Source: Branchiostoma floridae
Taxonomy: Eukaryota > Chordata > Leptocardii > Amphioxiformes > Branchiostomatidae
Direction: 5' to 3'
Assembly (NCBI RefSeq): GCF_000003815.2
Contig: NC_049980.1
Span: 23,595,932 to 23,659,931, forward strand
DNA length: 64,000 nt
The position numbers and the translations under genes were made by a program. The notes under the pieces are model-generated. The model saw nothing but the letters and a program-made list of their open reading frames with translations. It searched no databases and was not told where the DNA came from. Within the stretch, counting starts at the first letter, position 1. Every line of letters starts with the position of its first letter. Of the stretch, positions 7,677-36,292 are shown piece after piece.

Positions 7677-10600
7677 CTACTGCACTGTTGTGACTTTGAT
7701 CTCGCACGACACGGTCCCGCCGTCAGGTGCACGTCCCTGACAGGTGTAGGCCCCGTCCAGGTCAGGGGTCATCTGATCGATGTGCAGCTCGTGTAGGAAG
7801 CCGTCTGACGTCGCCCGGAACCCGGGGCGTTTGGCGAGGCTCTCTCCGTTATAAAACCAGTGTGCACCGTCAACTATGAACAAAGATATGAAACAGCTTA
7901 AGCATTTAACGCATTGTGCCCGACGATGACCGATCGTCGCCCTCAATGTTTGTCTAACGTTTATACTTGTTTATTGATATAATCAACGCTAGTTCACCTT
8001 TATCCGCGGGGTAACCTATATCCGTTGTGTTGCTAAATAGGGTATCCAGAGATATCAAGTCGGTGGAAGGTAGTTTCAAATCGTACTTTTTTCACAATAC
8101 AGTTTGAAACCATCATCTGTCGACTTGATTTCCCTAAATACATTGTTCTTTAAAAGAACGGATAATGGTTATCCTACGGATAAAGATGAACTAGCGTTAC
8201 ATTTGGACGTCCAGGATTTTAAGCGATTTGGTTTCTAGTTCGAAATGCAATATCCTGTCAATCTATCTTAATGCCTGATGATCTCAATATATGACCTAAT
8301 GTATGTCATCTATGCTGTGCACTATAATGGTGCAAAAACCGTGCAATCATGACTACTGGTACTATTCTATGATGTCCTTGACCAAAGGAACAAAACCTAA
8401 AAGAATATGCGACAATTCGGAACTAGCATATAAAACCTTAACTTATTCGTACCTCTACCGTACTTGAACTTTTAAACATGGAGTGATTCAACCCTACCTT
8501 CTCCGCTCACTTCCAAGATGACAGGCATGTTGATTGGCACCACGGCAGACGACAACGCGGACATGAGTCCTCCCGTCTGTCCCACAGAGCTCATCTCCTG
8601 TGCCTCGTCTACTTTCACGTTCGGACCTAGAAGAATGGGGGTTGTATATCACAGTCCAGGGTACGTTTGCACATCAAATGGAATCGATGATTATGCAAGG
8701 TCACATTGATGACAAAATGCCTGCTCACGCATGTCTGCGTTTGTGAAATCAAAGTGATGCTAACACAAATAACACCGTTACCATACAAAGACACATAAGA
8801 ACATGTGCGATATGCTTTGAAGTTTCGGTATGATGTAGGCTGTCAAAAATATTCAACATTTGATGAGAAAAAAAAACTTTTGAAAGTTGGCGACATTATC
8901 AAGAAAGTGTCTACAACCTATTACATTCACAGCTTGTACAAGGTGCCGAGACTCCTATACAACCCACTGTAACTTCGCCAACTTTACCACAGCTATATAC
9001 AATGGATTTGTAGGTGACAAATAAACATGTTCAAACTAATCTTTTCCTTACCTATCTGGATTCCCGACATCATCCCTTCTCCGTTTGACACAGTGGTGCC
9101 GTTGGCCTTCATGGTACTCTGCATCTGTACGTTACTGTTCATCATCACAGCTTCCTCCTCCATGATCCGCGTGTTCAAGTTCACACCCTCGCCTGGGGTT
9201 TACACAAATAGAGTCTCAGACAATCGTCTTCATCATAGGCTATTATCAAAGCGCTTCATCTTAGACATTAGCCTGCTGTGATCTCTACCGCAAGTCATGA
9301 TCATGAAGTCTCTGGATACATGTTACAGCAAGATTTGCCAGCAAAGACATAATATTCATTTTTACGTGGTCTAATCTAACAAATTACCGTTTATTCTTAC
9401 TTTCATATATGTGGTGACCAGCCCCTCCAACTCTGGCCTGCCACTTGCTACATTATGTAATCGAACGCCGCAGTGTGTCTGCTACACCTCCAGTAACCAT
9501 GGTAGCAGCGGTTTAGTCCAGGTCATCGACCTTATTGTTTGGAACGGAAGAAGAGGAAGAGGAAGAAACGGAGTAAAACTACATGCTTCCTTTCCGCAAA
9601 CGTGAATATGGATATATCTTTAGTACCTAAGAATCTTACCTTCCAGAAGGTCTGCAAGGTAGGCCGACTGGTCGTCTGTCCTCAGGGCAGCACAGAAGAC
9701 ACCGAAGTCTCGATCACTCCGGGAGGGCAGCAGGTGAAGAATCCGCTTGTTCTTGTCCTCGCGTGACTTCGCACCGAGGCAGCAGTTCGCCATGTGTCTG
9801 GTGAAAACCTACAGAAAGGTAGTTATGAAGGTAAATGATAAATATGACATTGAAGCCTTCACGTTTCAGATAGTTTTCACCGAACAATTTTCTGAAATGC
9901 TTAGCTTCGGACAATCATTCTTGGTCCAAGGACGCAGTTGTTGTTATGTTGTTGTGAAAAGTAGGAGACGTCACCCATATTTATCTGTAATGAATGCTTT
10001 TCTGACAGTTCAAAGGCAACTAGAACAGATGATGATCATTTTCTTATTTCTTGAGAAAATGGACTCATGTGTGTTATCCCATTGGAACAACACCTGTCAC
10101 GTCTGACTAAATGTCAAAAAAGACGTCACTTAAACAAAAGGAATCATTTGCAATATCTGGCTCGCACGGTCTTGCCTTAAACATTAAAGTTTCAGCTACG
10201 CGACAGAAAAATGTATCACTTACTTTATTGTCAGAGAAATGGGCGATGATGTCATCAGGGTTCATCTTGTTAACCAGCAGGTTTCTATGACTAGCTATCC
10301 GCCTCTTCTTGTCGACTGACAGTCCTGTCCGAAAAAATGAAATTGAAAAAGGTGAATACTGGGACAATATAAGAAAATTTATTGAGAATTGCTTAAGTCA
10401 AAGGAATATCCTTTCTTAGTCTATGTAAAATCCCTTTCTCATATCCAAGATGACACGATTTAAAGTTGCCAGGACCGATCGGGTACGTATAGGCTTAGGT
10501 GCCAATCGCATGTAACAAATTTGTCCCAGGTTCATTTAAAGTCCGACTTCAACCAGGTGCCCGACCGGGACCCAAAATACCTCGGGAGCCGCAAGGTGTC

Positions 10601-12526
10601 CCACAGGGCTATAGGGGGCCACAGTCCGTGAACTGCCCGGCAGGGACACCTTTTTCCAATTGTGACCTGAGCCTTACAGAAGATCTTTAGTTAGTGTGCT
10701 GTGCGACGTACCCTCTCCTTCCAATGTGTCCGCCAGCCAGTGGAGCTGCTCCTGTTCCCTGAGACTCGCACACAGGCAGCCGTATGACTCGTCCTGGTAC
10801 GAGGGCAGAGCGTCCAACAGCTTCTTAGACTTGCTCTCTGGTGTCGGCTGGCTGAAGGGCATCAAATGATGATTGAATTACGATATTTAGATTATTGGTT
10901 TAATGGTTCTTTCCCTTTTCCATTTTAGACTAGAGCTATGTCTATATTCACAGAAAAGATTCACAAAAAAGACGGATAGTAGCTTCAGGTAGGTTTTGAC
11001 GGCTCATAGGTGTTCTCACGTTTAGGTCAACATAGTAACATACACACAAAGTGAGATGCGTTTTATCTAAATGTCGAAGGCGTAAGCTTATGGTACAGTA
11101 GGATCAGGAATATGGGAAGCAGGAAAAGTAGACAGGATATCTGGTGAAAGATTAGGAATATTATAGTAAAAACGTCACCTTATTATATCGTTAAGTGTAG
11201 TTTCAGGAATAACACCCTCCTGGGCCAGGTAAGACGCCACTGTGGTCGGAGACTTCATGTTGTCGATGATTGTATTCCTGTATGTCCTTAGCATGGCCTG
11301 ACGGTCTGGACTCATGGTGGAGAATACTACAGAGTTTGGGGAGGGGGATCATGACAGCTTATCAATATAAGAAATCTTTATTGACACAACAAAAGTACAG
11401 CGACTTTCGTAATGTCTATAGCAACTGCTTACAGTACATATAAATAGACATATATGAATAAATGTATCTATAGAAATGGATAAGTCAACATGTTGAGTCT
11501 AGCGTTACATCAAATGTGATCTGTTGTGCTCTCATGAAAGTCATCCTCACAAATCTTATTTATCACAACCGAAACTCCCATTATAAAAAGTCCGTTGTTT
11601 ATCCAAATATTCACATACAACAGATTTAGATTTAGACACAAAGTCTTCTAATTGTCTTATCTTTAGACTAATTGGATTTAAGTCGACACACCCCACACTT
11701 GTATTAGCAATGTTTTGCGGTAAACTTATCATTAATCAAACCCGGAGCAGTAGGATGTAGTTTACGTGTTTTGTCAGTGGCATTTACACCACACGTTATT
11801 TAATTTAGTTCCATTTCAAATAAGTTAATGATACATACATCTAGAGCGTGTTGACATCCTAGCTTCAGAGGCAGAAAAGCTTATCGCCGTGTCGTCCATT
11901 TTGTTCTTCTTCCCCATTAACTCACGAAACTTTCTCTCCAGTCCTATCTTATCTCGTACAGGCTTGCATCGTTCTTCACAGAAACAACAGCACACCATCT
12001 GGGGAGGGAGGGCGTAATCAGTCTTGTGAAGATTTCAAATACTGCATGTAGCCTTTAGTTACTTCGCCGATAGAAGATCGTTGCTATATGGTTTTGACAG
12101 AGGAATTTGAGTATTGAACGGGTTCAGAATTTCACCTTACTATAGTTCTTCAAAAACTAAATAAATCAGCGTTCTAGCTAGAAAGAATTTTTCTGTTATC
12201 TCGAGTTTGTCTAACGGAAAACAATCACCCGGAAATAATTCGTCTCGTCCCACGGCACTGAATGGCAGTAAGATCGATGTTGCACACATGTCGATATTAT
12301 TGTCACAATTTACAACTATCGAGAATTATAATAAAATCATAAATTTCCCACTAACACTGATGTCTTTTGTGGCATTATATTGAGACCATGCCCGTTGAAG
12401 CCTTACCAGGACAATCCACAGCACGAGGAAGAAGAGAAATGGTATGACCCAGGCAAGTGCTATCGCGCCAAACTCTCCAGTGATTCCCGGAGTTGCACCC
12501 CCTGTGGGTGGTGACGTTGAATCCAT
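7677..12526 (-). CDS. Gene A: membrane-anchored tandem-CARD plus Ig protein, 434 aa
   Basis: Nine exons in transcription order: 12407-12526, 11839-11998, 11179-11326, 10712-10851, 10224-10324, 9640-9808, 9052-9192, 8498-8626, 7677-7873 (1305 nt, in frame). Residues 1-22 are Thr/Pro/Gly-rich. Residues 23-41 form one hydrophobic helix, followed at once by MVCCCFCEERC, a likely palmitoylation cluster. CARD1 spans about 97-190 (MSPDRQAMLRTYR to LADTLEGEG), CARD2 about 191-279 (RRIASHRNLL to LADLLEG). A linker (280-335) leads into a C-terminal I-set-like Ig domain (about 335-432) with W (HWFYNG), YTCQG and the stop after VTTVQ. No cleavable signal peptide is seen, so N-out, C-in topology is inferred. 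CARDs form homotypic helical assemblies in innate signalling; the role here is inference. The intracellular exons are nearly identical to gene B. Confidence 0.9.
7985..8198. mobile_element. MITE with 22-bp terminal inverted repeats, in the last intron of gene A
   Basis: Left end AACGCTAGTTCACCTTTATC and right end reading GATAAAGATGAACTAGCGTT are inverted repeats with one mismatch. The interior also folds back (ATATCAAGTCGGTGGAAGG against ATCATCTGTCGACTTGAT). A related copy with a degraded left end lies at 60889-61066. It is non-coding and non-autonomous; the superfamily is not determined. Confidence 0.75.
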
Positions 12527-14892: not shown

Positions 14893-14898
14893 TTTATT
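14893..14898 (-). terminator. Candidate polyadenylation signal of gene B
   Basis: Minus-strand AATAAA about 520 nt after the gene B stop, within the same 15-mer as at the gene A 3' end. Confidence 0.5.
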
Positions 14899-15413: not shown

Positions 15414-18400
15414 CTACTTTACTGTTGTGACTGAGATCTCGCACGACACGGTCCCGCCGTCAGGTGCACGTCCCTGACAGGTGTAGGCGCCGTCCAGGTC
15501 AGGGGTCATCTGATCGATGTGCAGCTCGTGTAGGAAGCCGTCTGACGTCGACCGGAACCCGGGGCGCTTGGTGAGGCTCTCTCCGTTATAAAACCACTGT
15601 GCACCGTCAACTATGAACAGAAACAAATAGTTAATTGCTAGATGCTGACAGTCCGTCGTCGTTGATATTTGTTTATGATTATTGGTATGCTAATTATGCC
15701 TGGACTTAAAGATAGTATCTATCCTTTGTGTCTGATAATGGTAAGAGAATGCTGCCTTTCTTTCTAATAAAAACGACCCTACCTTCTCCGCTCACTTCCA
15801 AGATGACAGGCATGTTGATTGGCACCACGGCAGACGACACCGCGGACATGAGTCCTCCCGTCTGTCCCACAGAGCTCATCTCCTGTGACTCGTCTACTTT
15901 CACGTTCGGACCTACATGTAGAGGGATGAGCGAAGTACATCATTGTGCATGCTACATTTGCATATGAAATAAAATCAATGATTCTGATGCTTGTTCAAGT
16001 CATTTATCTTTATTTTTTTTGTTAGTAACAGTGATGTTTGCATTGTCTGCTCATGAAAGTTCAACAACATTGGTTATCACATATCATAACTGATGTTTAC
16101 ATAAGTACCAGTCAAAGGAACTTAATATATGCTTACATATACTTCGAAGTAGTATGATGTAAGCTGTCTATGATACTTTTAAAGAAGGGAACTGATGTTG
16201 TAAAAGGGGAGCGCAAGTCCCTATTGAGAGTGCCTCCATCTTGCATGAAACATTAGCATAAGTTATATGCGGTACAGAGCGTCTTGTTTTGAGAACTGTG
16301 GATATACTACAATAATGACGAATCTGTAGGTGCGAAGTAAACATGTAAAAACTAAAGTCTTTCTTACTCAGCTCTATGCCCGAGTTCATCCCTTCTCCAA
16401 CTGAACCAGCAGTGTCGTTGGCCCTCAGGGTTCTCTGCATCTGTACGTTACTCTTCACTATGGCAGTTTCCTCGTCCATGATCCTCGTGTTCAGGTCGAC
16501 ACCCTCGCCTAGAGTTTATACATAAGCACAAAGTCTTTGGCATAGGCTTGTACTGAATCTGAAGTCACAGCTAAAGATGTACCATAAAGTTACTTGTCAA
16601 TCCTAAAGCCTAGATGAAATGTCACAGCGTTTAATCCTTATGAAAGTGTTTCATCCCACTTTTACTTTTTTGTTGATGTCGCCCTGCCGTGAACTCAACC
16701 TCACCTCATCCAACATGTCTCCTGAGCGCGCAGGTTATAGAAAGATTGGTAGTGAAATATGCCATTAGCTCCCGTCTTACCCTCCAGAAGGTCTGCAAGG
16801 TAGGCCGACTGGTCGTCTGTCCTCAGGGCAGTACAGAAAACACCGAAGTCTCGATCACTCCGGGAGGGCAGCAGGTGAAGAATCCGCTTGTTCTTGTCTT
16901 CTCGTGACTTCGCACTGAGGCAGCAGTTCGCCATGTGTCTGGTGAAAACCTACAGAAAGGCAGCTATGTTATGAAATTGGAGCCTTGGAAAGTTTTAATT
17001 AGACGAAGTTAGCTTAATTTCGAAAGAGCAAATTCCTGAAATGCTTTACTGTTGATGATGCAATGGGTAGCAGAAGATGCCTTATACATCAGTACATTAT
17101 ACATTATCATCAGTAATGAATGCATTTTTGATATCAAAAGTCAGATCAATACGGTGTGATGATGTCTTTCCGCTGATGTTTGTTCTAAAAGGCAGAGATT
17201 CCATGAAAACTGGACGCGTGAATGTTCTTCCATTGGCAGAAAAACGCCTGATCGCCCGGTCTTGGATTGAATTAGCTTAAATGTGGTCACGTAATAGTTA
17301 CTTTATTGTGAGATAAATGGGCGACGATGACGTCAGGATTCATCTTGTTCACCAGCAGGTGTCTATGGCTGGCTATCCGCCTCTTCTTGTCGACTGACAG
17401 TCCTATCGGAAAGGAAATATGAAAGGTTATAGCTGGGACAATACAAGAAATCAACTTAAAATTGTGAAACAGAAGAAAATATTCTTGTTTTGTCCCATGT
17501 AAGACCTCCATCCTGCTGGACTAAATACAATATCAAATCTGTCACGTTTTCCTCGGTTACATAAGATCTAGTGCGACGTACCCTCTCCTTCCAATGTGTC
17601 CGCCAGCCAGTGGAGCTGCTCCTGTTCTCTGAGACTCGCACACAGGCAGCCGTATGACTCGTCCTGGTACGAGGGCAGGGCGTCCAACAGCTTCTTAGAC
17701 TTGTCCTCTGGTGTCGGCTGGCTGAAGGGCATCAAATGATGATGAAACTAGTTCAAGGCCATGTCAGTACCTTAGGAATGATGATGATGATTGGTATTCC
17801 GTATACAGTATTTACAGACAGACTTGCAGGCAATTGTATACAGTAGTTTGCATCTGAATGGTTCGTGTATTTATCACCGAGAATAGATATAAGAAGACTC
17901 ACCGTTGGCTTTTCTTCAGCTTAAATTATGAAAAATTGGAGAAAATAACAAAACAGTGACGCAGTGAACGAACCCCGTAGTGACGCAAGCTTGATGCATC
18001 TTGGGTGCAGTGATATACCACCTTTGGTCACTGGAAGCCACTAGGGGCCCATTATCGTGAACTTTGTTTCCCGGGATCCCGTCCCCTACTCACCTACCAA
18101 ATATCATTAGGATCCACCGATAGCTTCTCAAGTTATGCTGTCCACAAAAACAGGAAATACGGACAATAGCTATAGGCATCTTTTAGGTGTTCCCAGTTCA
18201 AGTCAACGTGATGTGTAATTATTCTTTGTAAATTTCGCAAATCAAGATTTCAATTTATCGTACGATAAACACATTTCGAAGGTTTCGATACAATGGGATT
18301 GGGAATATGGAAGTAGAAAAGGTCACCTTTCCATTGTGTCAAGCATGGTTTCAGGAATAACACCTTCCTGGGCCAGGTAAGACGCCACTGTGGTCGGGGA

Positions 18401-19320
18401 CTTCATGTTGTCGATGATTGTATTCCTGTATGTCCTTAGCATGGCCTGACGGTCTGGACTCATGGTGGAGAATACTACAGGGGTTTGGGGGAAGATTAAG
18501 AGAACTTATCACTTACAATACCTGTGATTTGTAGTACTTATAGCAAAAGGCATTTTCATAGATCCCCTTCATCACAATCGAAGCCTGTAGTTTAATTAAG
18601 ACAAACATGTAAAATAATCCTAAATTCTCGACATTTGCGAAGAAAAGAAAACTACACTTACAAAATCCACATAACATTATAACAGACAAGTCGGGCTTTC
18701 GTCTTCAACTGTTTCAAAAGAATTCGAAGTCGTAAATATCGATTAAAGCAACATTTGATTATTGACATGTGTAAGAAATAACGTGTATAACTTTTAGTAA
18801 GTATACCTTTAGGGTGTGTAGACATCCTAGCACTAGAAGCTTTAAAGCTCACTGCCGTGTTTTCAATTTTGGTCTTCTTCTTCATCATTATTTCACGATA
18901 CTTTCTTTCCAGTCCTATTTTCTCTCGCACAGGCTTGCATTGTTCTGCACAGAAAAAACAGCCAACAACCTGGGGAGGGAGGGCAACACAAACAAAGTGG
19001 TCACTTAATCAGCCCGAACATTCTCCACTACTGTATGCAGTTGTTATTTACTACACCAGTAGATTATCGTTATTAGAGATTTTGGCAGGAAGTTAATCAT
19101 TGTACCAACGACATTGAGAACCTCTTCAGAATTACGAATTAACATAATATACCACGGCATCATTCTAACATTCTCGCATAAGGGTCCAAAGAAGCCTTAC
19201 CAGGATTATCCATGGCATAAGGAAGAGGAAAAATGGCAACATCCAGGAAATTGTTGGTACTTCGGTCTCGCCGGTAGTTCCTGGAGTTGTGCCTGCGGTA
19301 GATGGCGAGGTTAAGTCCAT
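15414..19320 (-). CDS. Gene B: membrane-anchored tandem-CARD plus Ig protein, 435 aa
   Basis: Nine exons: 19201-19320, 18807-18969, 18327-18474, 17582-17721, 17302-17402, 16781-16949, 16368-16508, 15783-15911, 15414-15610 (1308 nt, in frame). The layout is that of gene A: Thr/Ser/Pro/Gly-rich N-terminus (MDLTSPSTAGTTPG), one membrane helix, a Cys-containing juxtamembrane stretch (VVGCFFCAEQC), CARD1, CARD2, linker and terminal Ig domain (AQWFYNG, YTCQG, stop after VTTVK). The start is set by alignment with gene A exon 1 (21 of 40 residues identical). The second CARD2 exon differs from gene A at 2 of 57 residues and exon 8 at 2 of 129 bases, while exons 1, 2 and 7 have diverged strongly. It lies head to tail between C and A. 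Function inferred as for A: a membrane-tethered CARD scaffold. Confidence 0.9.
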
Positions 19321-20630: not shown

Positions 20631-20887
20631 TAAGAATGTTAGAATGTAAGTGTGGCAATTGCAAACTAGTTCATGAAGTTCGTGTAGGAACGATTCCACG
20701 TAGAGAGGGTGCCTGTGAATATTGAAATGGCAAAACACTCTTACGATACTAGTATACAGATTAATAATACTACAGAGGAACTATCAGGGAAGTATTTAAG
20801 AACATTTTTACCTCCAGGCTGTGTCGCTACCTTTGGAGACCCTTACCGCCAGACCCAATATTTAATCCCACACTTCTTACAGTAGAT

Positions 20888-22443: not shown

Positions 22444-25400
22444 CTATTCCATCAATGTGTTGACTTTGATATCGCACGACACCGTGCCTCCGTCAGGCGT
22501 GTTGCCCTTACAGGTGTAGGTCCCGTCCCGGTCAGGGGTCATCCTGTCGATGAAAAGCTCGTGGGTGAACCCGTCTGATGTAGCACGGACGCTGGAGGAC
22601 TGCCGGATGTTTTTGTTATTGTACAACCACTCAACGTTGTCAACTGAAAAATAAAACATTCATTACATTAATTAAACTATTGTCTCAGTCTGTACGATAA
22701 TAATTTTTCCTTTTTGAACATCCATTGTTACATGTCGGCAGAGAACGAAAGAATACGGTCGTTTTTTGAGTTCTGGACAATATGCCTCTCGACTAAAATG
22801 TACGAGGACCGATTGTTTTTTTTTTATAACTCATGAGCGTTGTAGGTTCGAAGAGCAAGGTTAGGAATCTATCTTCACATCAAAAAGGATAAAAACATTC
22901 GATATTGTGCAGCAATCACGTGCAGACGATACTCATGTGACAATGTCAAGAAATCACCGACTAGGACTTGTGAGAACGATTTTTCAACCACCTTACACAG
23001 AACAGATAAATATACTTCCATGTATGGAGAAATGGTATTACTTCTTGTGAAAGAAGGTAATAAGAACTCGCATCCGTACCTTCTCCCCGTACCTCCAGGA
23101 TGACTGGGTGGTTGTTTGGCACCGTGGCGGAGGACGCGGACATCAGCGCCCCCTGCTGGCCCACATTACCCACCACCTTCACCTCGTCCATGTGCACACT
23201 GGGAACTGGGAAAACACATGAGGAGTGAAATGTTAATTACTTGCACTTTAAAGAAATCCAAATTTGCCATCAAGTTAGTGCCTTAATATTTAAGTTACAT
23301 GGATACACATAAGAATGAACTTTATTGCTCGACAATCGAACATACTACAACGTATCGCAACACAATACTACAAGGCTAGTCTATCCTATAGATTGGAGCT
23401 ACAAAATATCACAGTCAGTAGTATATTAGTTACAATGTAGTCACGTATGGATGATATGTTTTCACTTTTGGAATGAAGTACAAAGAGATTGACTTAAGTA
23501 TATGTAGATGGATATAGGAGTTGGAGATGGCAAAAGTAAGTGATCGTTGCGAGGCAGGAAGGAAGGGATGACTGTACATTGTACTCCATTATGGAATGCA
23601 TATCGACATATCCCATATAACGTTAGGTACGATGCTTTCAACACAGAGAATGCATGTCACAGCCCTTCTAACACACCTGAAAGACTCATCTGCTGCCACT
23701 GGGGGTTACCGGATCTCTGTAGGCTCTGAGCTCCCGCCATTCCCAGGCCTGCCCCGGCCACGCCGAGTCCTGCCCCGGCCACGCCGAGTCCTGCTCCCCC
23801 TCTGTTCTGACCCTGTACCATCCTCTCCTCCTCACGCAGCACCTGCTGGTTCAGGTCCACTCCTTCTCCTGAAACGGTCAACATTGCTTATCTGTCAATC
23901 ATCTATCTAGGGATGCTTGTGTGGTGAGTGACAGTTCTTTTCATCTCTTTCTTATTATTATTATTTTCACTTCATATCATGAGCTTGTCATGAATAAACA
24001 AAGGGTGAAAAATATGTACATTCAATCGCAGACACGTTTTTATTTTTCCTAGTCTCAGGCAGCTGCAGGTGCTCAATGTAGTATCAGATACACCAAGGGG
24101 TTCTAATGAGTGCTGCACCCGCCAATCAAACTGCTTCCCTAATATCAGCGGAGCAACGGGTAGTATGATTATTACTTTACCTTTATCCCGATTGCCATTG
24201 GTGAAGTGCAGCTGTCACTAATATAACGTTACGACTCATAAATCTAGGCCTTTTGATACTTGCGTGTGCTGTTGCTTGCTTGCCTCTACATACTAGTAAA
24301 GGATGTGAGAGTAAAATGTTTATATTCTCTGCCGCTGGAACATAGAATACCTATAGCTGTCTCAGATACTCAGAGACAATCACTGCTTTTTACTAACTAC
24401 CGGTGCACACTGAATGATGTGGATATCCATGCAGCCCAGACAGATGAATGGCGCCTCACCATTGCTGTTCCCTATTGGTCAGACGACCGCGTACTATCAT
24501 CTATAAAGTACAAGTGCACACTGAACGACTATGAAAACTTCTTTCTCACTTTTGGTACCCTCACCCTGAAGGAGGTCACCGAGATACGCCGTCCGTCCGT
24601 CAGCCCTCAGCCCGTTGCAGAAGACGTCGAAGTCGGCGTCGCTGCGATCGCGGGCCTGCATCAGCTCCAGGATCCGCCTGTTCCTCTCCTCGTGTGAGCT
24701 CCCACTCATGCAGTACTGCGCCATGTCGTTAGTGAACACCTGGGTCACGGTGCCGTGTACGTATTTAGTGATTCCTTTGTGTAGCAGAAATGCGACAGTA
24801 TGCCTAGACCTTTGTTTTATCATGTAATTGATAACCAATATACACCAACTCTATGTAACTGTACTGACACAATAAATGTGTGAGCTAATCTAAACCGTGT
24901 TCAGCTCATTTTTAAGTTAGCCTTAATAAACGATAAATTCACACGGTTTTTCCTTAATTTTACACTTGTAACGTCTATTCACTGTACCAATAGAAAGCAA
25001 TTCATTAAATACTTAAGCGCTATACATCAATTGTTCATATTCCACAGCCTTTTTCAGCAATGGTGAGAAGGGAATCTGGGCAACGACGTCTGTCGGGTAA
25101 ACAACTATGCTTTTTCAGTACCTTATTCTGCACCAGGTGTTCAAGAGTTGTCTGGGAGTTCATCTTCTGCACCAGGAGCGAACTGTGTTGGCGCAGACGC
25201 TGAAGTTTCACCAACGACATTCCTGAAATGGAGAACACCGTGAAATACGTTCCAACATTCGTGTAACAGGTAAAAGACGTTCAAAATAAGTCAAACTTTG
25301 TACGTACGCACTGTCGATCAACATATACGGAAATTTGAGCAGCACATTGATGATAGAACAAGGCGAATTATATTCTTTGCTAAAACACTTTGGGTGTCGT

Positions 25401-28400
25401 TGGTGATGGACAGGTCAGGTGTGTGTAAAGCTGTCCACACTCACCCGCCTTTCTTGCGGACATCCCAGCGTTCATTGCCGCGGCTCCAGTCTTCTTCAAG
25501 GCGGCTCCGCCCAGGGCCGCTCCGCCCAAGGCCGCTCCACCGGCCAGGGCGGCCCCACCCGCCGCCAGAGCACCGCCCTTCATCCCCATGGATCCAGACG
25601 GTAGTCCACCCGCCAAGCCCTGATTCATGAACCCCATGGATCCACCCTTTATCCCAGGGGCTCCACTGTTTATATCCAGGTCTGGGGCGACGATCTCCTT
25701 GCTTGGCCACTTCTTCTCGATGTCACCTCCGCCGACGCCACCGCCACAGCAAGGGGCGCACATGCTTTCACAGCGGGCTCCACACGCTCCGCAGTACGTC
25801 CCACAGAGCCCGGCTTGGCAGCAACAACAGCAACAACAGCAGCACTGGAATAGCAAAACAAAATGTTATTCATCATAATGTGCGCTAGAGAGAGCAAGTG
25901 GTTGTGAATGAATGATAGAGTGAGCGAGAGTGAGTAAGTAATGATCAGTAATGGAGTAAATTGATCGATTGCATGAGTGGGTAAGTCAATGAGTGAGTGA
26001 TACTGTATATATCTAAGTCAATGCAGTTTATCTACTTCATCTGCATTTCAATCCCAAAACTTATGCTGTTTTACCTGCCACTGTCATTAGGTCCCTTCCT
26101 GAAATAAAGTGTGTATTTTTCGTACGCTCATTTGTGGCTATTGTTGTGTGCATAGTTTGGGGTAATGATTTTGAAGTGAACAGGCCAGAATATGATAGAC
26201 ATTACAGCTATCTTTCTCTGTGAAGCTGTATATGTAGGAGATGCAATGTAAGAAGGCCATGCTCGTTAAATCCAGCTTTCCTATATCACATGAACACACT
26301 TCTCCCAGATTGGGATGTCTCGAAAATGGTGTATGCGTTCTTCTAATGGTATATGTCATTGTTGCAGTTGACACCTTACCAGCATGAAAAGCAAAGGTAT
26401 CAGTAGCAAAGGCAGCAGCCAGGCGAGCAAGGGTACGCCGCTGCCGCCTGTTCGAACAACGCCGCCGCCTCCAGCACCGCCGCCGCCTCCGGGTACTACC
26501 GGGGGGTTCACACCACCTACGATAGGCGCGCTGTAAGGGCCGTACACGCCCTCGTCTGTTGTGGCTCGCACCTGCGTATAGAGGCAAGTGTTGATTCAGG
26601 TAAGTCGTTGCAACAGAAATTTGAATATTAATATGCATGCCACATACCTTACCATTAGTAGGGCAAACTTGATAGGACAAACTTTATTCTCCATGTCAAT
26701 GATTATTCACGCCGCTCACTCACTCAATCATTCACTCACTACTCACTCACTCACTACAAACTCACAACTCACTCACTCACTCACTCACTCACTTCTCACT
26801 CACTTATATACTCACTACTCACTCACTATCACTCACTCACTCACTCACTCACTCACTCACTCACTCACTCACTCACTCACTCACTTCTCACTCACTTATA
26901 TACTCACTACTGACTCACTACACACTCACAACACACTCACTCACTCATTGACTGCTCACTCACTCACTCACACTCACTTTCACTCACTCGATTAATCGAT
27001 CAATTGCTAACTAATTCGATAGATTGCTTAATTGACCAATCAAACAATATTCTGTATAATTTGCACATCGTATTACAATGTGACCACTGCATGGCACCTA
27101 CAATGCACGTTGAGTACCTGATACGTGTAGTCCTCTACATTTCCCAGATTCGAGATAGTCGTGGGCAAACCGTCTGGGCCCGGCACGTTGACCAACTGCT
27201 TGTTCGGCCCGTTGGGTCCCTCGGCTGTGGGAAAGTACGCGACCTGGTACCCGTTCACTGTGCCGAAACTGTCCGGCTTCGATCCATCTATCGTCACCCA
27301 GTCGGCTCCTTTGTTGATCACCCTGGCGTCGGTCATCTTCTTTGGTGCTAAGGACAGGGCAGAAGAAATGCCAATATGTCAGTAACGGATGCGAAGTGTC
27401 TTGCACATACCATATAAACCTCTCGTTCTGAAAATACCATTTCAACTTAGTGAACTTACCTCCGATTCTTGCTTCTGCAAAGCTCGTTGTGTCTCCGTAC
27501 ATGTTGGTCGCGATGCACTGGAACGAACCGCTGTCCTGTGGCTGCGCGTCCGCAATCCTGAGTGTCGTTCCTGTGGGCGTATTGTTGATGGAGTACCTCC
27601 CTCCGTGCTGTACTGGCTGGTGACAGAACGACAAAAAGCAGTCAAGCACAGATCATTGCAAGATGATCGATCATTACGGTCGGTAATTGATCTTAATGCG
27701 GAAACCTTCAGCTTTCTTGAAGACTTTAGTTGCTCTTGCCTGGGCACTAGGGTGTGCAGCGTAACAGCCTAGTGTAGTCATTGACTTAAACATTCAGCTA
27801 TAGATCACCATTGATAACACTTTTATCAAAAATGTTTTTTTTAGGATAGAGAAAGCAGAGGATTGAACAACTGCAACACGCCGGTGGTCAGGGTTGGGGA
27901 GTTGGAATCTCTGGCAGGTACCGATGCTGCACCTTTGGGACTTAGAGCGATTTCCTCAATCAACTCAGGTGTAGATAAATGTACAGCTTCTCATGAGGAC
28001 GTCCTTCATCGGATAGAACGTTGAATGGAGGTCTCGTGTTTCGAGGAAAGCCCAAAAGGATGGTACCAATAGCTCCATGGAGCTACATGGAAAGCCACAC
28101 CTGGAGGACCCACAACACTTATCGAAAAGTGTAAAGAACCTTCTCGGTGTCAGTGGATCAAATAAATCTGTCCGATTGCCCTTTTCAGTACAGGCTTACC
28201 AGGTATGCAATACAGACAAATCATCACATGTGAATTATTAGAAAAGACCTTACCTGTCCATTGTGATACCACTGTGGAGTCACAGGCGTCCTGCTAGCCT
28301 CCCATCCCATACTCAGGTCCACAGCTTCTCCCACCCCGTCGTCGTGGTTTTGGCCGGCAAGGCTTTGCGTCAGTTTTGGTCTATCTTTATGAGAAACAAA

Positions 28401-31400
28401 GAGCAAAAATGATGGTGGTGATGTTGTTTTTCTTATCAGCACCAACACCACACTCTATGGGTTTTAACATTAGATACTCGTTAGAAATGTATGTACATTA
28501 TTGAGTGGAACAGTTAATGCGAAGTAGAAATACGAAGTCGAAAATATCAACTACCTTTCTTATCATTCGAAAGAGTCTATATACACGTAAAGAGCTCAAT
28601 CTCACTTTCCACCTCGAGCTGAGTAACAGCGGTGTCTGAGCCTTGCGAGTTGGTGGCTGTCACCTCGTAGAATCCCTCGTCTGCTATGGCCGCATCACCG
28701 ATGGCGAGGCTCCTCTTGTACCTTTCCATGACACCTTTCGCTGGTATGGGTAGCTCGGTGCCACCTTGGGTTTTTAACCGACGCCAACTGTATTTGGGCG
28801 TCGGGCTTAAACAAGGTCAGACATTAAAACAGAATTATTACTTGTTCTACCTGGTAAAATACCTTGAAACTCAAAGCAAGAATTGTCTCTTTGTAACCAA
28901 TATTAAAAGAGCATCGGACCGTCGTACAGTCACCGTGAGATAGTTGGAGTCACCGTGTGCTTTTTTTTGTAAATCATATTTACTATTAGAATTACTGTAA
29001 AATTCAATTACATATGCATTCAAACAATTAATAATGCTGTTGTAAATCATACGTATAGAGCCTGCTCGAGACTAAGAGCACACCAATATATTTTGCGTAA
29101 AACATGTCTAGTACAAGGTCTTATCATTTTGGAGTCAAACTGAAAGCAACAGAGATACCTTTAGAAGGCTAAACTATTGACCCAGGCCAGTTGCTTCACT
29201 GTTGAGACTAGTTATGTACAGCGTTAGGTGGGACCGTGGAGGTAGTATGCTGTATCGGTACTTACTTCCCATAGGCGAAGAACTCTATCAGGGCGTCACT
29301 ACCTTCCTCCGCGTAGATGACATTCTCGCTCAGGGCTATCTGAGGAGAGCTCAGAGGGGTAGGACCTAGAAAACATATTATGTATGTGTTCTATCTGTTA
29401 GAAAACATATTATGTATGTGTTCTGTTTCTATAGAAAAAGTCATCATTTTACCATGCTAATCTAAATCTGCTTACGAAATCTCATCCTGACTGACAATCT
29501 GCTCCGGTCTCCACCTAATGCCATTTCAATGATCAACGTTATTATGGTATTCATGAATAGCAGACTCACACAAAATTGAAACGCATAGTAAATGGTTTAT
29601 TTCACTGGGAACTGAAATACTTGAACAGAAATTACCTTTGGTCAACAGTCAATACTCTTTCAAATTTGGAGCCGTTAATGCACAATACGTTCGACATCAA
29701 ATATCCTTTCTACTAAACGTTTACTGATACATTTTGGACTTCAATCATACTTTATCTGGTTATCTGGCTCTCACTCATCCTTCGTGACCCCACTAATTAA
29801 AAACGGCCTGCAGGCTCTAGATAGCCTCTCAAGAATAAACGTAACAGCGTAAAAAAATTGGAGTTCAAAGTTTCAAACAAACAAAGAATCGTGTACTGTT
29901 TGTACAACATTGGCTTACTTCTTGCCGCTACGTCCAGCCTAGTAGACCCGCTCACGCGACTGAAAGCGGCGTCCTGTCTTGTCTTCAGTCTCACCGCACA
30001 CTGGTAGCCTCCGGTATCCGTGTCACTGATAACGTTAGAAAAGAACAGGTCGCCCTTTTTCCTGGACACGTAGGCTCGCTCGAAGAGGTTCGTGGTGTCG
30101 TCACTGTTTGGGTCGGGAATGAACTCGTTCGATTCGTGATCTATCCACTCGTAGGCGAGTCCTGAAGGGAAGGAATAGGAAACAAATAACAACCTGTCAT
30201 GTCTGCTTCGCGAAGATCACGTTTGTTTCATGCTTGTATGTAATGTAGAAGTTTGGCGCCAAAACTGCGAATGTACCAAATCTAAAATTGCGATTCCGGA
30301 AACTCCCTAGCCGAGCAAAATGGCTAATGACTCAAGCGGCGGTGGGAAGTAAGTGTGCATATTTGAAGACGTTCCTAATCTCCAAGCAGATTCCTCCGGT
30401 GGCTTACAACAGTAACATAAGCTGGGGAAGGATTTCAGCCGGAAGAGGGAAAGATTTGCCACGGCTGAAGTCCTTCCCCAGCTTATGTTTCTGTTTTAAG
30501 CCACCGGAGGAATCTGCTTGGAGATTAGACGTTCCCACAACTCGATGAAATCACATCCATGTGCTGTGAATATCTCTGTACAGTGTGATTATGTAGATTC
30601 AACTTATGATGAAAAAAAAAATGATCCGAAACAGCAATTTTGTTTTGATCTTTTGATCGGTCATATTCTGCAATACGTTTAATGACATCCACTAGAACAT
30701 ATACAAGGAAAGCTAGCAGAATCATATACACAGCTCGTCGTTGTATTGCATATTCAAGCATTGAAAACAAGACCATAGCATGTTCAGGACAAAAAATACA
30801 AAAAAAAAAAGTTCTTCTGTAGTACCAAGATCCACCAAACACACACTTCCACGAAGGAAAAATGACGGGCATCAATATAGAGCTGCATTTTCTTGTCCTT
30901 AAATATTCTCCATGAGGACAACTCTCACCTGGGAGCGAGTCTGGCGGGTCGCACACCAGTCTGGCCCCGTCCCCCTGCGACGAGGAGACGCTAGCTCTGT
31001 CAGCGTCCGAAAACTTGTCCGCAACTGGGAAAAGGCAGACGGCAACATGTTACGCATATGAATCCAAACCACCAGATATGTTGTCTGGGTTTGAAACTTG
31101 GACTTGTCTCCAAACCAACCGGCATTCTTGTACCACAGTCATTCCTCTGGAACAACATTCGGGACGCATATTGTGAAACTTTGGGCCCTTTACTTTATAG
31201 GTAGTTTGAGTAATACTGAGCATAATGCAACGATTCACTAGTTTACTGGCTTAGCACATAGAACTATGCTTGTTCCGACTCTTGTAGTACGAGTTCCTAG
31301 TGGCATGTAGGGCAACGAGACTCCTTGCTTTTCAGTATTGTGGTATTTTTTGTTTGTTCAACATGCTCGAGGCACCTCCCCGAACACGGATCCCCATTCT

Positions 31401-34400
31401 ACGTCTCCGCGGCAAGACGAGTGCGGCCGACTGAGATGCCCTTCATAGAATAGGGTTGAACCGGGGTCTCATCTATTAGGCCATGTTGATTTGATTATAT
31501 GGATGACATCCTCCGGGAACTCCAAAACTGATGCGAGCGAGCGAATAAAAAAAAACTTTGGCCCCCCCAAAAAGTTGCCTTCAGTATGAAATCAAAGTGG
31601 CCAGGAAGGTTGAACATAGGACTAAACACACATAGTATGGTATACCATGATCCTCTGGACCTGAATTTTCTGTACTGGTACCTCCCCCAACCAACAATAG
31701 ATTTTTTTTCTTTCCGTCCTTTCACTTCTTATTCTTTGACTTTAGATTCATTTTGGCATTCTAGATATGGCATTAGTTATCTGTTTTCTGAGCTTAGTGC
31801 TCATTTTACAGCTGCTTTGCACAATTTATTGTGGTCGAAAACTTTTTGGAAATGGCCGAAAATTGGTGCGAGCGCGGATGTCATCCATATAATCAAATCA
31901 ACGTGGCCTTAGCGAATGATCGGAACCACACCGGAGCTCAACTGTGATGCTGCTACCAAATGAGCCACAGTGACGTCCCCAAGAAACCATGTTGAAATAC
32001 TTTTCCTCTTTATCGTCGGCAGGACTAACTGTTTCGTCACATAATGGGCTTAGTTACTGTTGGTTGATGATGACGATGGTAATGAAGTGGATGACGCTCG
32101 TGTAAGGAAGGGATTTGGAAACACGACTCACAAGCGAACTGCAGACTGCCGCGAACACTTCTTACACGGCCGTACTCGTTGAAAGCCTCGCACTGGTAGA
32201 CTCCGCCGTCGGTGTCGGCGTTCGGCTGGGGAATCGTCAGATTATCGCCGCCTGCGCTGAACTGGTAGGGGGGCTGCCGGGAATTCTGTGAAAGAATATT
32301 CCAGTACCGCTTACCGTAAGAGGACTTATCCCAGTGGTATAACATTACAGTACATTGTAGATTCATCGTTGCAGGTCTCATCACTACCGAAAGTCCTCAT
32401 TGCTAGATTCAAAAAGCATGGAAAAAGGTGTTTGTCACTACCCGGTGGACCACAGCAAATACGTGAACACTGCGACGAGAAAAGTTTATGAAATCATAAT
32501 GTAGTTTGTTAATGGATTGCTGAGGGCAGCTCGATTTGATTCTGGGAAAGCATATTTCAATACTTCGGGATAACTATGATGTGAGAGAAAAGCAGTTGCA
32601 AAAGCCTTCGTTCAATCTAGATAAAGATTACAATATTAGTATCGGAAAGATGAATGTAGATTTAACGTTTATACGCCATGGCATTGGAGGCTTTCTTTTC
32701 CCTCTAATAATCAGATAGTGAGAATTCACTGTGATTTTTTGGGCACCTGGTCTATTTGGGCTCCATCCTTAAGCCAGATGTACTGTGGTGTCGGATCCCC
32801 TGTCGCCTGGCATTGGAACTGCAGCGTATCTGAACCTAGTTGGGGATCGAAGATGACCTTGCCGGGCTGTAGGACCAGACGAGGAGCGGCCAGTTGGTCG
32901 TCGGGTAACTCTGCTGCATGAATAAAGAAAATAGAAATCTTGATGAGAATTACCTTTGCAACATCTGTGGCATCTACTAGTATATAAAATATTCAATCTA
33001 TATGGTTGTGTTCTCAGTTTCATGTACTGCTTCCCTGATCCAACACCTCAAATTCATTCTGTGCTTGACCTACACATGCACATCCTTGAGCAAATCATCA
33101 AATCTATACATACCTGGTAAATTGTATTGAGAATTTGTCAATTGAGAAGTCACCACTCTGATATGTTTTCAATGCATGAATCAGTGAATGGAATATGCCT
33201 GCTTTGACCCAATCCTTCAAATAATCCACATCATGTGATATTCTAAATTTGAACCTGCCTTTTTTGATGGAGGAAATCATGCAATGTTGAACTGATAACA
33301 TTTCCATAGTAGGTTAATTGGCCTGTTATAAATTTAAACGCGTTGATAAAAAACTTAATATCTTTATATTAAGATCTTTCATTGTATTCTGGCAACCCGG
33401 ATGTCACGAAATCGCTGTCAAAAACACTTGTAGTACCGTTGCACAAATATTTATGATCTGTTTTCAAACCGTGTCAAGTTGACATTTCTGAGTTCAAAAC
33501 AAGTTTTCGTGGCCCGCCCATGTTTTAGTGTAACCCGACAGTGCTCAGAATGTGCCAGACGTTGCCATAGCGTCCAGACCGTTGCCGGACCGGTTTGGGT
33601 GTGTGAGGCGCAGTTTTAGCGTCTCTTGGCTGATGCGATTCCGTTCGTCCGATTAAAGCTCGCAGCTGTGGAAAGGTCAAAAGGCATTACGTTTCCTTCC
33701 GCCCATTTCAATCGTATCCTATCATATTCGGGATCATCTGAGTCATCAACACTTTTAAACATAACCGTCGTAACTGTCATGAGGATGCAAAGTCAAAGAC
33801 AATGGGGTCTGTTCCTCGTACACAAAAGCCAATTTAAGAGCAGTCATTGGAAAAATGATTCATGTTTTCAAACAGTTAACCACAGAACACGTGGTATAGT
33901 ACAAACTTTGTGATCTGTCTAATCTTTACTAGTGTTGGTACGGTTTGCTTACAGGGATATAATCGGAAAAATTCTGTTTAATGATGTCTATGATATATTT
34001 TTCATGTTTTCGAGCAATCATCTACACCATATATCGTCAGACTAGTCCTTAAAAGTCTAAAGCGAGCTTTAAAGGTCGATGATAAACGCAATGATAAAGA
34101 AACTCTAAGTAATGGGCACCTTCCGGAGGCTAGGTTTAGCACGACATACGTATTGAATCATTTGTGATCGAGTCAGCCTAGGAACGTAACAACAATCAAG
34201 TCTCGGATGAGTCGATGCAATGTCTGCATAAGAAGTCTACATGAGTGAATATGGGAAGGGGCGGAATCATCGGATCCACCATAACCCACACATTGTCATG
34301 ACAACAATGGCAGATAAGCCCTGTAAGCTGTACATTTCATCTCGCGTATATAGCCCTGCCACAACGATAAAAGCGGCCGTGGCTTTGTAGCCATATAATG

Positions 34401-36292
34401 TCAAGATACACACAGTTAACGTTATCATTAAAGTCCAATCTCTGTTTTTTGTTCAGACTCGTTTCCAAGTGTAGCCAAATACCCAATAACCTAACGGACA
34501 ACAAAGGAAGCAGCAAGGTTTGAAAAAAAAAAGAAACATCTTAATTTTTTGTTTGACTGAAGACAACCATTTAGCCGTAGAATACAGTACTAATTACGCT
34601 GTTGTACCTATTCCACTAAGTCACCGACAAAAATATGATGTATAAAATGTAAAGCAACTATTGGACGTCTCGGTAAAAGTCAAAGAAACGAAGTAACCAG
34701 ACTCTGAAACGCTAGTACGTTAAACCGGACAGAGCAAGACAAACATGCAAAACTAAACACACAACATGAAAAGGAAGGGGAGACAGTAGTAGTTCTCAAT
34801 GCAGTAACTCCAAGATTGATGAGTTGATTAGATATAAGATACTACCACGGACAGGTGGTTAACGTTAGAGACCTTTAGGCTAACACTGTCCTCGACCTTA
34901 CATTGGTTTATGTTCTTGCACCCCTGGGATTTCAGGTGACCCTGATGAAGGCATCACTTTACACCGTTATCAAGTCGTCTGTGATGAGATCTTATCCATG
35001 TCTGTGATGAATATTTCGGGGACTACAGATTTTGTCACAGGACATCTGGTTTGTAGATAACTAAAATAACTAGGCCCAGTCTGCAAAAAAAATGTCACAA
35101 ATGACAGCAATGTCTCTGTTTTCTGGCCCAAGGAAAAAGGTTTGCTGGCTCGAACTGACCGCCCTACATCTGGGCAACAACAGGATAACTCGGTATCCAC
35201 CACCTGTGTACAGACACACAGGAGGGGCTTTGGTGACGTGATAGATTTATAGCTTTTCAGATGAGGCACAAGGAGACCATCTTTAGAAATCTAGCATAAG
35301 TCTCCTTCCGTTGTTTAATCCAGAGGATTATGGAGAAGCATCTTCCTTTGGATATTTCAAGGTCATACATCCACGGCAATCTTGGCCTTTGTTTTGCCGG
35401 ATGTTCGGAAAGTGTTATATCTAATCTTATTCCTATTGACGCAGTGAGAACTCTTTCAATTTCTGGTCGTTGCGAGGAGGTATAAAGCCAAAGTTTGTCA
35501 GAAAACCACGTACTTGAAGAAACGGTTTGAAACAAGCAATCTGGTAAACCGCGAATTCGAGATCAGCATACAATGGGGAGGGGGAAGTAGCATTTTGAAT
35601 AAACGAATATGTTTGCAGTATACAGTCTGGTGCACGTGATCCGGGGGATTTTTAGTCAATACCAGCATACCCGAGGGTACACCAGACAAACAAAGATCAC
35701 AAAGGAACCAATCACAGTAGATCCATGTTCTCAGACAGGAGAACCCAAGCCAGAGTCCTTACGTTGGAGAAGGGGGTTAATGAACGGTAAATTATTTGTC
35801 AGCACGACGGTTGGTCGTTTACTATACAACTACTTAATTTGAAACTTCAGTTGAATTGGGAAATTCGTTAGACACTTACAATGCAGTATATATGTATGAA
35901 ACACAAAGGTACATAAATAACATAATCCCAATGTACAATAAATGTACGCACATGTAAAGGTAGAATAATGCAAATTGGTAAAAACACAGCAGAGCAATCA
36001 AATCGGAATTCTAGGCATTTAGTTTCTTGAAACATTCTATTTTTTTTCATTCGTACAAAAAAGAATAAATCTACAATACAATACAATATTTTCCAGATGA
36101 AACAGTAGGACTTTAAGACAATAAGACTACTCTATCTTCAGCAAGAGTCTGTTTGGATCGTTGAAAAAAATAACGTAAAATCACATTTCCACACGACGTG
36201 TTGATGACCAAGGTAAACGTCAAACGGATCTACTTACTTCCACCCGCCACTGCCAGGCACACAGCCAGTGGGACGAGACACAGCCAACTCAT
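22444..36292 (-). CDS. Gene C: receptor with Ig4-FN3 ectodomain, TM, poly-Cys, CARD and intracellular Ig, 972 aa
   Basis: Seventeen exons: 36238-36292, 32747-32913, 32132-32285, 30929-31024, 29919-30161, 29266-29365, 28606-28805, 28254-28384, 27460-27616, 27118-27347, 26380-26571, 25445-25844, 25122-25222, 24565-24739, 23677-23868, 23080-23205, 22444-22643 (2919 nt, in frame). Signal peptide 1-18 (MSWLCLVPLAVCLAVAGG). Ig1 about 26-125, Ig2 126-238, Ig3 239-338, Ig4 339-434, FN3 435-530, Gly-rich stalk, TM 557-575, nine Cys 576-584, Gly/Ala-rich to 708, CARD 710-800, linker to 865, Ig 875-970. Ig1-Ig2 resemble contactin (QATGDPTPQYIW, CDPPDSLPG). The CARD (VKLQRLRQHSSLL, YLGDLLQG) aligns with CARD2 of genes A and B; CARD1 is absent. 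Ligand binding outside and CARD-driven assembly inside are inferred. An acceptor-like CATTAG just upstream of the ATG suggests a 5' UTR exon. Confidence 0.9.
25818..25844 (-). other. Nine consecutive Cys codons abutting the transmembrane helix of gene C
   Basis: The first nine codons of exon 12 are all TGC or TGT, directly after a TM helix ending IPLLFML. Seven more cysteines follow within about 24 residues. Juxtamembrane cysteines on the cytosolic side are typical S-palmitoylation sites. The plus strand reads as a GCA/ACA triplet run, so length variation is possible. Confidence 0.9.
26710..26990. repeat. (ACTC)n microsatellite in intron 10 of gene C
   Basis: Long interrupted ACTC tetranucleotide array. 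A second, diverged region rich in the complementary GAGT motif lies in the next intron at 25.90-26.01 kb. Confidence 0.95.
27940..28200. mobile_element. SINE-like repeat in intron 8 of gene C
   Basis: Text such as GAATGGAGGTCTCGTGTTTCG and AAAGCCACACCTGGAGG resembles the 3' body of the SINE at 43.18-43.49 kb (ATGGAGGTCCTGTATTCGTG, ATAGCCACACCTCAAAC). No clear tRNA-like head was found here. Confidence 0.45.
30375..30528. mobile_element. Near-perfect hairpin MITE with 6-bp target duplication, intron 4 of gene C
   Basis: The two arms, about 67 bp each, start CTAATCTCCAAGCAGATTCC and are complementary with about three mismatches. The flanks show ACGTTC on both sides (30369-30374 and 30529-30534), a likely target-site duplication. 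Non-coding. Confidence 0.85.
31479..31908. mobile_element. 430-bp TIR element with TTA duplication, intron 3 of gene C
   Basis: The termini GGCCATGTTGATTTGATTAT (left) and the complement of the right end agree over 33 bp with one mismatch. TTA flanks both sides (31476-31478 and 31909-31911). A TTA duplication and GG-starting TIR fit PIF/Harbinger-type non-autonomous elements; the superfamily is inferred from the target site only. Confidence 0.8.

Follow-up and report, generated by a model that had tools for sequence, protein, structure and literature searches.

Putative receptors with a contactin-like ectodomain and a cytosolic CARD-Ig tail in Branchiostoma floridae

Several described systems share part of their architecture with the genes analysed here. 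Contactins are nerve adhesion proteins with six Ig domains, four FN3 domains and a GPI anchor, and they lack a cytosolic tail. UNC5 combines an Ig ectodomain with TSP1, ZU5, UPA and a death domain. MAVS is a membrane-bound, signal-nucleating CARD protein with one N-terminal CARD and a C-terminal mitochondrial anchor, and RIG-I, MDA5 and NOD2 are cytosolic sensors in which tandem CARDs serve as the signalling platform. Directly wired shortcuts, for instance TNFR-caspase proteins, are described for amphioxus in sections of PMC2575513, and Ig-TIR receptors for sponges in passages of PMC12909245. In lophotrochozoan RIG-I-like receptors, CARD, CARD-CARD and Ig occur as alternative N-terminal domains (passages of PMC8998645), and MALT1 is composed of a death domain, Ig domains and a paracaspase (passages of PMC5978004). 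The sections of PMC2575513 on direct wiring make no mention of Ig-CARD, and the passages of PMC8998645 describe no receptor with a contactin-like ectodomain. Among titles, abstract openings and selected passages of the literature, no Ig-TM-CARD or contactin-CARD protein was found; an earlier description is possible.

The window, that is the whole stretch of 64,000 nt of B. floridae DNA that was analysed (NC_049980.1, 23,595,932-23,659,931; assembly GCF_000003815.2), contains the feature under study at 7677..36292. As the preliminary description had stated, this region holds three minus-strand genes with full in-frame models (A, B and C). Gene models and Pfam matches confirmed that each of them places CARD(s), a linker and a terminal Ig domain behind a membrane helix and a Cys cluster. 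A and B were likewise upheld as short forms, and C as a receptor form, which carries a full contactin-like ectodomain. The order TM-CARD-CARD-Ig given for the family in the preliminary description did not hold: judged from sequence, the prototype is the receptor, with contactin-like Ig1-4 and FN3 outside and CARD(s) and Ig inside, and the number of CARDs varies, being one in C, two in A, B, D and E, probably three in F and probably five in I. The family has at least seven receptor places in the genome besides the short genes A and B, and these seven places rule out A and B as the prototype. Two flanking window stretches scanned with Pfam had no match at E <= 0.001. Taken as a whole, the earlier interpretation was partly supported.

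Gene C is predicted to encode a signal peptide, four Ig domains, FN3, a membrane helix, a run of nine Cys, one CARD, a linker and an Ig domain, in this order. Thirteen exons (30161-22444, minus strand, as are all features below) form one open frame, and a version begun at Ig1 has 16 exons. The candidate signal-peptide exon (36238..36292, with a phase 1 donor) was the only candidate that passed the filter, and it matches the outer coordinate of the preliminary description. Ig1 (32132..32914) is encoded by exons ~32747-32914, of which the 5' edge is approximate, and 32132-32285; Ig2 (29919..31024) by 30929-31024 and 29919-30161; Ig3 (28606..29365), which is without either canonical cysteine, by 29266-29365 and 28606-28805; and Ig4 (27460..28384) by 28254-28384 and 27460-27616. 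FN3 and the membrane helix (26380..27347) follow, with FN3 on 27118-27347 and its end together with the helix on 26380-26571; the Pfam fn3 match reached 24.9 bits, at a cut-off of 25. The gene model then places the nine-Cys run in a Cys/Gly-rich juxtamembrane region (25445..25844). The single CARD, of the CARD2 type (24565..25222, exons 25122-25222 and 24565-24739), was assigned by the model, Pfam and identity to A. The linker (23677-23868) and terminal Ig (23080-23205 and 22444-22643) complete the tail (22444..23868). Two CARDs in the tail of C were ruled out, CARD2-type exons alone being found.

When Ig1-4 of C were compared with the PDB, the ten best of 56 matches (E <= 1e-12) were all contactins. 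The top match was contactin-2 (8a0y), of which residues 16-388 aligned in one stretch with residues 14-415 of the 509 in the query (E 8.7e-49). Ig1-4 of the contactins are homologous to those of gene C, whereas the family described here has four Ig domains and one FN3, and a membrane helix followed by a CARD and Ig tail. With UNC5 it shares an Ig ectodomain and a death-fold tail in one chain. TSP1, ZU5, UPA and the death domain were not among the eight families matched in the Pfam scan of gene C (E <= 1). The Ig-TIR receptors and the amphioxus TNFR-caspase proteins are similar in that an ectodomain is wired straight to an intracellular signalling domain, but the family here has a CARD instead of a TIR or caspase domain, plus a cytosolic Ig domain.

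The short genes A (12526-7677, 434 aa) and B (19320-15414, 435 aa) each have nine coding exons in a stop-free frame, with the domain order membrane helix, Cys cluster, CARD, CARD, linker and Ig. All 16 introns of the two genes are bounded by GT..AG, and the phases are 0,1,2,1,0,1,1,1 in each. Exon 1 of A (12407..12526) contains the start codon, a short N-terminus and the membrane helix, with in-frame stops immediately 5' of the ATG, and exon 2 (11839..11998) the Cys cluster and a basic juxtamembrane stretch. By gene model and Pfam, exons 3 (11179..11326) and 4 (10712..10851) hold the first and second half of CARD1; by gene model and a PF00619 match, exons 5 (10224..10324) and 6 (9640..9808) hold those of CARD2. 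Exons 7-8 (8498..9192) encode the linker (exon 7, 9052-9192) and its remainder with the first Ig strands (exon 8, 8498-8626), and exon 9 (7677..7873) the rest of the terminal Ig and the stop codon (gene model and Pfam). In B, the start, N-terminus and membrane helix lie on exon 1 (19201..19320), and the Cys cluster and basic stretch on exon 2 (18807..18969), both by gene model and alignment with A. Gene model, Pfam and alignment with A placed CARD1 on exons 3-4 (17582..18474; 18327-18474 and 17582-17721) and CARD2 on exons 5-6 (16781..17402; 17302-17402 and 16781-16949). The linker and terminal Ig occupy exons 7-9 (15414..16508; 16368-16508, 15783-15911 and 15414-15610).

Spliced alignment of A with B scored 1782, whereas nine controls with A as query, either wrong-strand or unrelated, scored 32-57; by this measure the likeness is not chance. 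The two genes are near-identical in their CARD and Ig exons but have diverged in the introns, in the membrane helices and in the linkers. Comparison of A with B gave dN 0.10, dS 0.21 and, as a bare estimate, a ratio of 0.47. With regard to topology, ten Lys and Arg residues occur in both proteins in the 40 residues after the helix, against none in the 22 N-terminal residues. A and B resemble receptors from which the ectodomain has been lost. A search for an ectodomain remnant 5' of A gave a spliced alignment score of 32.0, against 34.0 on the opposite strand, and 5' of B 48.1 against 37.3; both were read as background, although the score for B lies above its own control. Controls with the receptor as query scored 50-68 (n=4).

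A genome search with the ectodomain of C gave at least 15 exon matches at E <= 1e-5 (100 of 152 candidates scored), of which 14 lie in seven places and one, C18:17312135, falls outside them. The Ig3 exon was matched at each of the seven places, and in every case matches to the CARD and the terminal Ig follow it in the same orientation; at the C9 2.64 Mb place, the sequence matching the terminal Ig contains one stop. A fourth family gene, D, starts inside the window at 3836 (minus strand) and runs leftwards beyond it to -13922. This gene was absent from the finding in the preliminary description. It has a sole candidate signal-peptide exon past the filter (3782..3836) and Ig1 at 876..1433 (exons 1284-1433 and 876-1020). 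The model of D contains two GC donors and one extra linker exon, and at two borders its phases depart from those of C and E; runs of N lie within the gene at -9340..-9239 and -1158..0. For F, the exon ends and the third CARD are modelled with less certainty than the rest, and no candidate signal-peptide exon passed the filter.

The CARDs, domains that serve immune and cell-death signalling, were borne out by profile searches: PF00619 matched 11 of the 12 CARDs from six genes at E <= 0.01 (CARD1 4/5, CARD2 7/7). The one miss was CARD1 of F (E 0.11), which matched CARD_2 at 0.0068, and CARD1 of E stayed below the PF00619 cut-off (18.0 bits). As whole proteins, A, B and C scored 60.7, 67.4 and 26.8 bits for the Pfam CARD (cut-off 23.9). 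Against the PDB, the CARD2 profile matched CED-3 (8e-6), NOD1 (5e-5), BCL10 (0.0017) and caspase-9 (0.0026), and the CARD1 profile RAIDD (1e-5). The second-half exon of a CARD, folded alone with the other half absent, was predicted as four helices (pLDDT 76.5). Foldseek returned nothing for it at E <= 0.001, and 14 of 36 weak matches were, going largely by title, CARD-bearing entries or designs based on a CARD template. The sequence profiles support a CARD fold. The CARD of C is 51% identical to CARD2 of A and, being related to CARD2 of the short forms, makes it possible that A or B and C co-assemble. The family resembles MAVS in having a membrane-bound CARD, but here the anchor precedes the CARDs. 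It has tandem CARDs in common with RIG-I, MDA5 and NOD2, whereas its sensor part is the outer Ig/FN3 array. The lophotrochozoan RIG-I-like receptors differ in being helicase sensors in which Ig substitutes for the N-terminal CARD (passages of PMC8998645).

The terminal Ig matched I-set at E <= 0.1 in all six cases. Whole proteins A and B passed the cut-off of 23.7 bits narrowly (23.9 each), and the terminal Ig of C alone scored 38.1. In the alignment, 30 of 89 columns are invariant. Cys is absent from the B-strand region in 6/6, so the canonical B-F disulphide pair is lacking; one Cys on the F strand and one on the G strand (strands named by eye) are invariant. The Ig exon alone, with the other half absent, folded poorly (pLDDT 56). 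The best single-stretch PDB chains for the terminal-Ig profile were myosin light chain kinase (4e-6) and myosin-binding protein C (6e-6). MALT1 is similar in having a death-fold domain followed by Ig, and the preliminary description had drawn this link. However, the family has a CARD where MALT1 of the BCL10-MALT1 pair has a death domain, and a MALT1-like terminal Ig was rejected by sequence comparison, no MALT1-named entry being present among 51 PDB matches at E <= 0.01 or among 14 at E <= 0.1. As to a paracaspase, no caspase-like Pfam family was found in A, B or C at E <= 1.

Prediction errors inflate domain combinations in lancelets, according to passages of PMC4967905 (2016), and neighbouring adhesion, CARD and Ig genes might have been wrongly joined in our models. 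Such an artefact is very improbable, because adhesion, CARD and Ig matches co-occur at all seven places and E agrees in phase with C at all 15 introns of C. Frame and phases are moreover kept across nine exons in A and B, and an intron splits every CARD and terminal Ig in A-E, so that the half-domains could not stand alone. A different function is suggested by the contactin-like ectodomain and by the myosin-associated best matches of the terminal Ig: the proteins might primarily be neural or epithelial adhesion molecules, with the CARD-Ig tail as a cytoskeletal link and not an immune or death signal. We consider this unlikely. The cytoskeletal link is weak, since outer Ig domains, for example those of CEA and NCAM2, are matched by the Ig profile as well; the number of CARDs varies among copies, as expected for an assembly platform; and in the families matched the CARD has a signalling role.

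Somewhat less doubtful, yet still a tentative reading, is a dependence or death receptor like UNC5, whose death-fold tail would trigger a caspase without ligand and for which A and B would be brakes or amplifiers of death. An IgSF ectodomain, the best match of the CARD2 profile to CED-3, its match to caspase-9 and that of CARD1 to RAIDD fit such a receptor, and B. floridae is listed with 53 caspases (in a passage of PMC2246300). On CARD2, however, NOD1 is within tenfold of CED-3 and BCL10 is slightly ahead of caspase-9, and the effector is therefore not distinguishable by sequence.

We favour, with a probability of roughly 60%, a family of single-pass receptors whose clustered ectodomain seeds assembly of cytosolic CARDs, with A and B as modulators. 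The order would be signal peptide, four Ig domains, FN3, membrane helix, Cys-rich region, one to about five CARDs, linker and I-set Ig. The ectodomain would bind a ligand or a like receptor, and its clustering would, by analogy, draw the cytosolic CARDs together. The gathered CARDs could then seed an assembly that recruits CARD-bearing effectors directly to the membrane and needs no separate adaptor. Palmitoylation of the Cys cluster is probable and would place the tail in membrane domains, and the terminal Ig probably serves for docking or capping. A and B may act on the same CARD platform as membrane-bound modulators, either amplifier or decoy. It is a more speculative suggestion that this is an adaptor-free, membrane-seeded CARD system in which each paralog has its threshold set by its number of CARDs (1, 2, 3 or 5), with A and B as matched tethered amplifiers or brakes.

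Vertebrate CARDs belong to caspases, adaptors and cytosolic sensors or are located at mitochondria, and are not known from cell-surface receptors. If conserved, the placement of CARDs right after an adhesion-type ectodomain would form a distinct route by which the cell surface reaches inflammasome-like or caspase signalling. With CARD numbers ranging naturally from one to five, their influence on nucleation could be tested inside one family, and the odd pairing of CARDs with a cytosolic Ig behind them may inform how the MALT1-type pairing of death fold and Ig works.

The short minus-strand genes A (12526-7677) and B (19320-15414) belong to the three adjacent genes at 7677..36292 that the preliminary description had presented as a tandem family of membrane-anchored CARD-Ig proteins. 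DNA comparison showed that similarity between A and B was confined to short blocks; nine of these were exons and the remaining blocks lay upstream of both genes. All introns were of the GT..AG type, with phases 0,1,2,1,0,1,1,1 identical in both genes, and the open frames were 434 aa (A) and 435 aa (B), with in-frame stops directly 5' of each start codon. Using protein A as a query, a purpose-written spliced aligner recovered all nine B exons unaided with a score of 1782 (background on wrong-strand or unrelated DNA: 32-57 in nine runs for the A query, 50-68 in four runs for the receptor query). Both proteins consist of a short N-terminus, a membrane helix, a Cys-rich and basic stretch, two CARDs, a linker and an Ig domain; no basic residues occur in the first 22 positions. 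The blocks upstream of A and B (13364-14332 and 20884-21775) are shared repeats, not family exons, and are possibly a mobile element.

Gene C, the receptor gene on the minus strand, has 13 exons from 30161 to 22444 in a single open frame, and 16 aligned exons once Ig1 and the first half of Ig2 are included. One candidate signal-peptide exon (36292-36238) completes the gene model. The order is Ig1 to Ig4, FN3, membrane helix, a run of nine cysteines, one CARD of the CARD2 type (the second in A and B), linker and Ig. The FN3 domain scored 24.9, just short of the cut-off of 25 bits. Compared with PDB sequences, the region from Ig1 to FN3 gave 56 matches at E <= 1e-12, the best ten all being contactins (contactin-2 first, 8.7e-49); beyond the contactins, DSCAM (4e-27) and neurofascin (6e-25) followed. 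Both canonical cysteines are absent from Ig3 (28606-29365 in C), alike in C, D, E and F, despite its expected position outside the cell. The nine cysteines following the membrane helix (25445-25844) precede Gly/Ala-rich near-repeats, in contrast to A, B, D and E, whose Cys exons are short. Elsewhere in the window, an open frame of 244 aa on the minus strand (40757-41491) had no Pfam match at E <= 0.001; it appears to resemble the C-terminus of an SLC5-like, sodium-coupled solute transporter.

Scanned singly, 11 of the 12 CARDs from six genes matched PF00619 at E <= 0.01 (CARD1 4/5, CARD2 7/7). CARD1 of gene F was missed at E 0.11 and matched CARD_2 at 0.0068; CARD1 of gene E was under the Pfam cut-off. 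Against PDB, the CARD2 profile gave 22 matches at E <= 0.1, including CED-3 (8e-6), NOD1 (5e-5), BCL10 (0.0017) and caspase-9 (0.0026), and RAIDD (1e-5) was one of 5 matches to the CARD1 profile. In the terminal Ig alignment of the six genes 30 of 89 columns were invariant; the F-strand and G-strand cysteines were kept in all six, and none had a cysteine in the B-strand region. Myosin-binding protein C, carcinoembryonic antigen and titin ranked highest with the terminal-Ig profile, their scores being sums of many weak Ig stretches. One titin pair aside, the best chains with a stretch passing alone were myosin light chain kinase (4e-6) and fast myosin-binding protein C (6e-6), and MALT1 was not found by name among the 51 PDB matches. 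Structure prediction covered single window exons, i.e. half-domains: the second-half exon of CARD2 folded as four helices (pLDDT 76.5, no significant Foldseek match) and the Ig exon alone reached pLDDT 56.

The flanking DNA contained D at the left and, on the opposite strand, E and F at the right. The start of D, a fourth member, lies on the minus strand at 876-3836 (signal-peptide candidate 3836-3782, Ig1 1433-876); the gene leaves the left edge, and an N run stops just before base 1. E repeats every one of the 15 intron phases of C and adds two for its CARD1 exons. D and E agree at 15 of 17 shared borders, the mismatches being the FN3 end (beside an N run) and the Cys exon; the D linker has one additional exon in the aligner's model. 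F has CARD1 and two tandem CARD2 copies (plus strand, window coordinates 159535-162309, past the right edge), which share 80% DNA identity over 694 columns, intron included. A relative, I (C9:9089500-9097000, minus strand), has CARDs followed by Ig. Four of these scored above the Pfam cut-off, the single-exon CARDs at 28.9 and 37.2 bits and the spliced ones at 39.1 and 45.6 bits; with a first half at 17.5 bits, under the cut-off, and a second half read by eye, I probably carries five CARDs ahead of Ig. A long repetitive Pro/Ser-rich stretch in open frame follows one CARD half.

The window corresponds to C2:23595932-23659931. Genome-wide (513 Mb), 149 CARD matches were scored; a published table for Branchiostoma floridae has 84 CARD entries (PMC2246300). 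The CARD2-to-Ig region of A had 47 matches at E <= 0.01 (90/90 candidates scored), which added copies at about 23.796 Mb on C2 and at about 2.636 Mb and 9.09 Mb on C9 (the last of these being I). The C ectodomain, searched independently, had 15 matches at E <= 1e-5 (100/152 candidates scored): seven were C's own exons, seven lay in D, E, F (two exons), the 23.79 Mb place and both C9 places, and one was elsewhere, on C18. The Ig3 exon was found at seven places, each of which has CARD and terminal-Ig matches following that exon on its own strand, no more than about 13 kb away. Full gene models cover six genes; the places at 23.79 Mb and at 2.63 Mb on C9 are represented by single exon matches, and at the second of these the match to the terminal Ig was reported with one internal stop. 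The best argument for a genuine fusion of ectodomain with CARD-Ig is this co-occurrence, which also meets the caution in the literature that prediction errors account for many lancelet domain architectures (PMC4967905).

Exons 1-2 of A and B occupy the position of the receptor's membrane-helix and Cys exons and share phases 0 and 1 with C and E. The ectodomain query scored 32.0 upstream of A (34.0 on the other strand) and 48.1 upstream of B (37.3), which was taken as background. The simplest reading would be that the ectodomain was lost first and that A and B duplicated afterwards. Their divergence is uneven: dS was 1.05 for the N-terminus and membrane helix, 0.40 for the Cys exon, 0.24 for the linker, 0.10 and 0.16 for the CARDs and 0.05 for the terminal Ig. 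Between A and B, dN/dS was 0.47. Identity was 90-98% in CARD and Ig exons, 67-79% in the diverged exons 1, 2 and 7, and 24-56% in the eight introns, every one of which scored above its ten shuffles. This pattern could reflect exon-limited homogenisation, e.g. cDNA-templated conversion, or constrained synonymous sites.

Direct-wired shortcuts published for amphioxus involve TIR, NACHT, TNFR-caspase and others (PMC2575513). No Ig-CARD receptor is described in the consulted passages of PMC2575513 and PMC4284660, and CARD as a term has zero occurrences in the main text of the latter. Among the papers listed by literature searches, no title or abstract opening names such a protein; a table entry in the 2008 Genome Research amphioxus immune-gene survey is possible. 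The family falls, as a variant, within the known class of IgSF receptors with a death-fold tail.

The analysis demonstrates, at sequence level, architecture, family, signals of topology and the A/B dN/dS. An adhesion receptor with a cytoskeletal tail and an UNC5-like dependence receptor are both possible alternatives to a CARD-signalling receptor. For the CARD-signalling receptor, the ectodomain would cluster via ligand or homophilic contact and draw the tails together, whereupon the clustered CARDs would nucleate an assembly that CARD-bearing effectors could enter; with CED-3 and NOD1 the nearest matches for CARD2 and RAIDD for CARD1, sequence does not allow a choice of effector. The Cys cluster may carry palmitoylation and the terminal Ig may act in docking or capping, and A and B would adjust the CARD platform.
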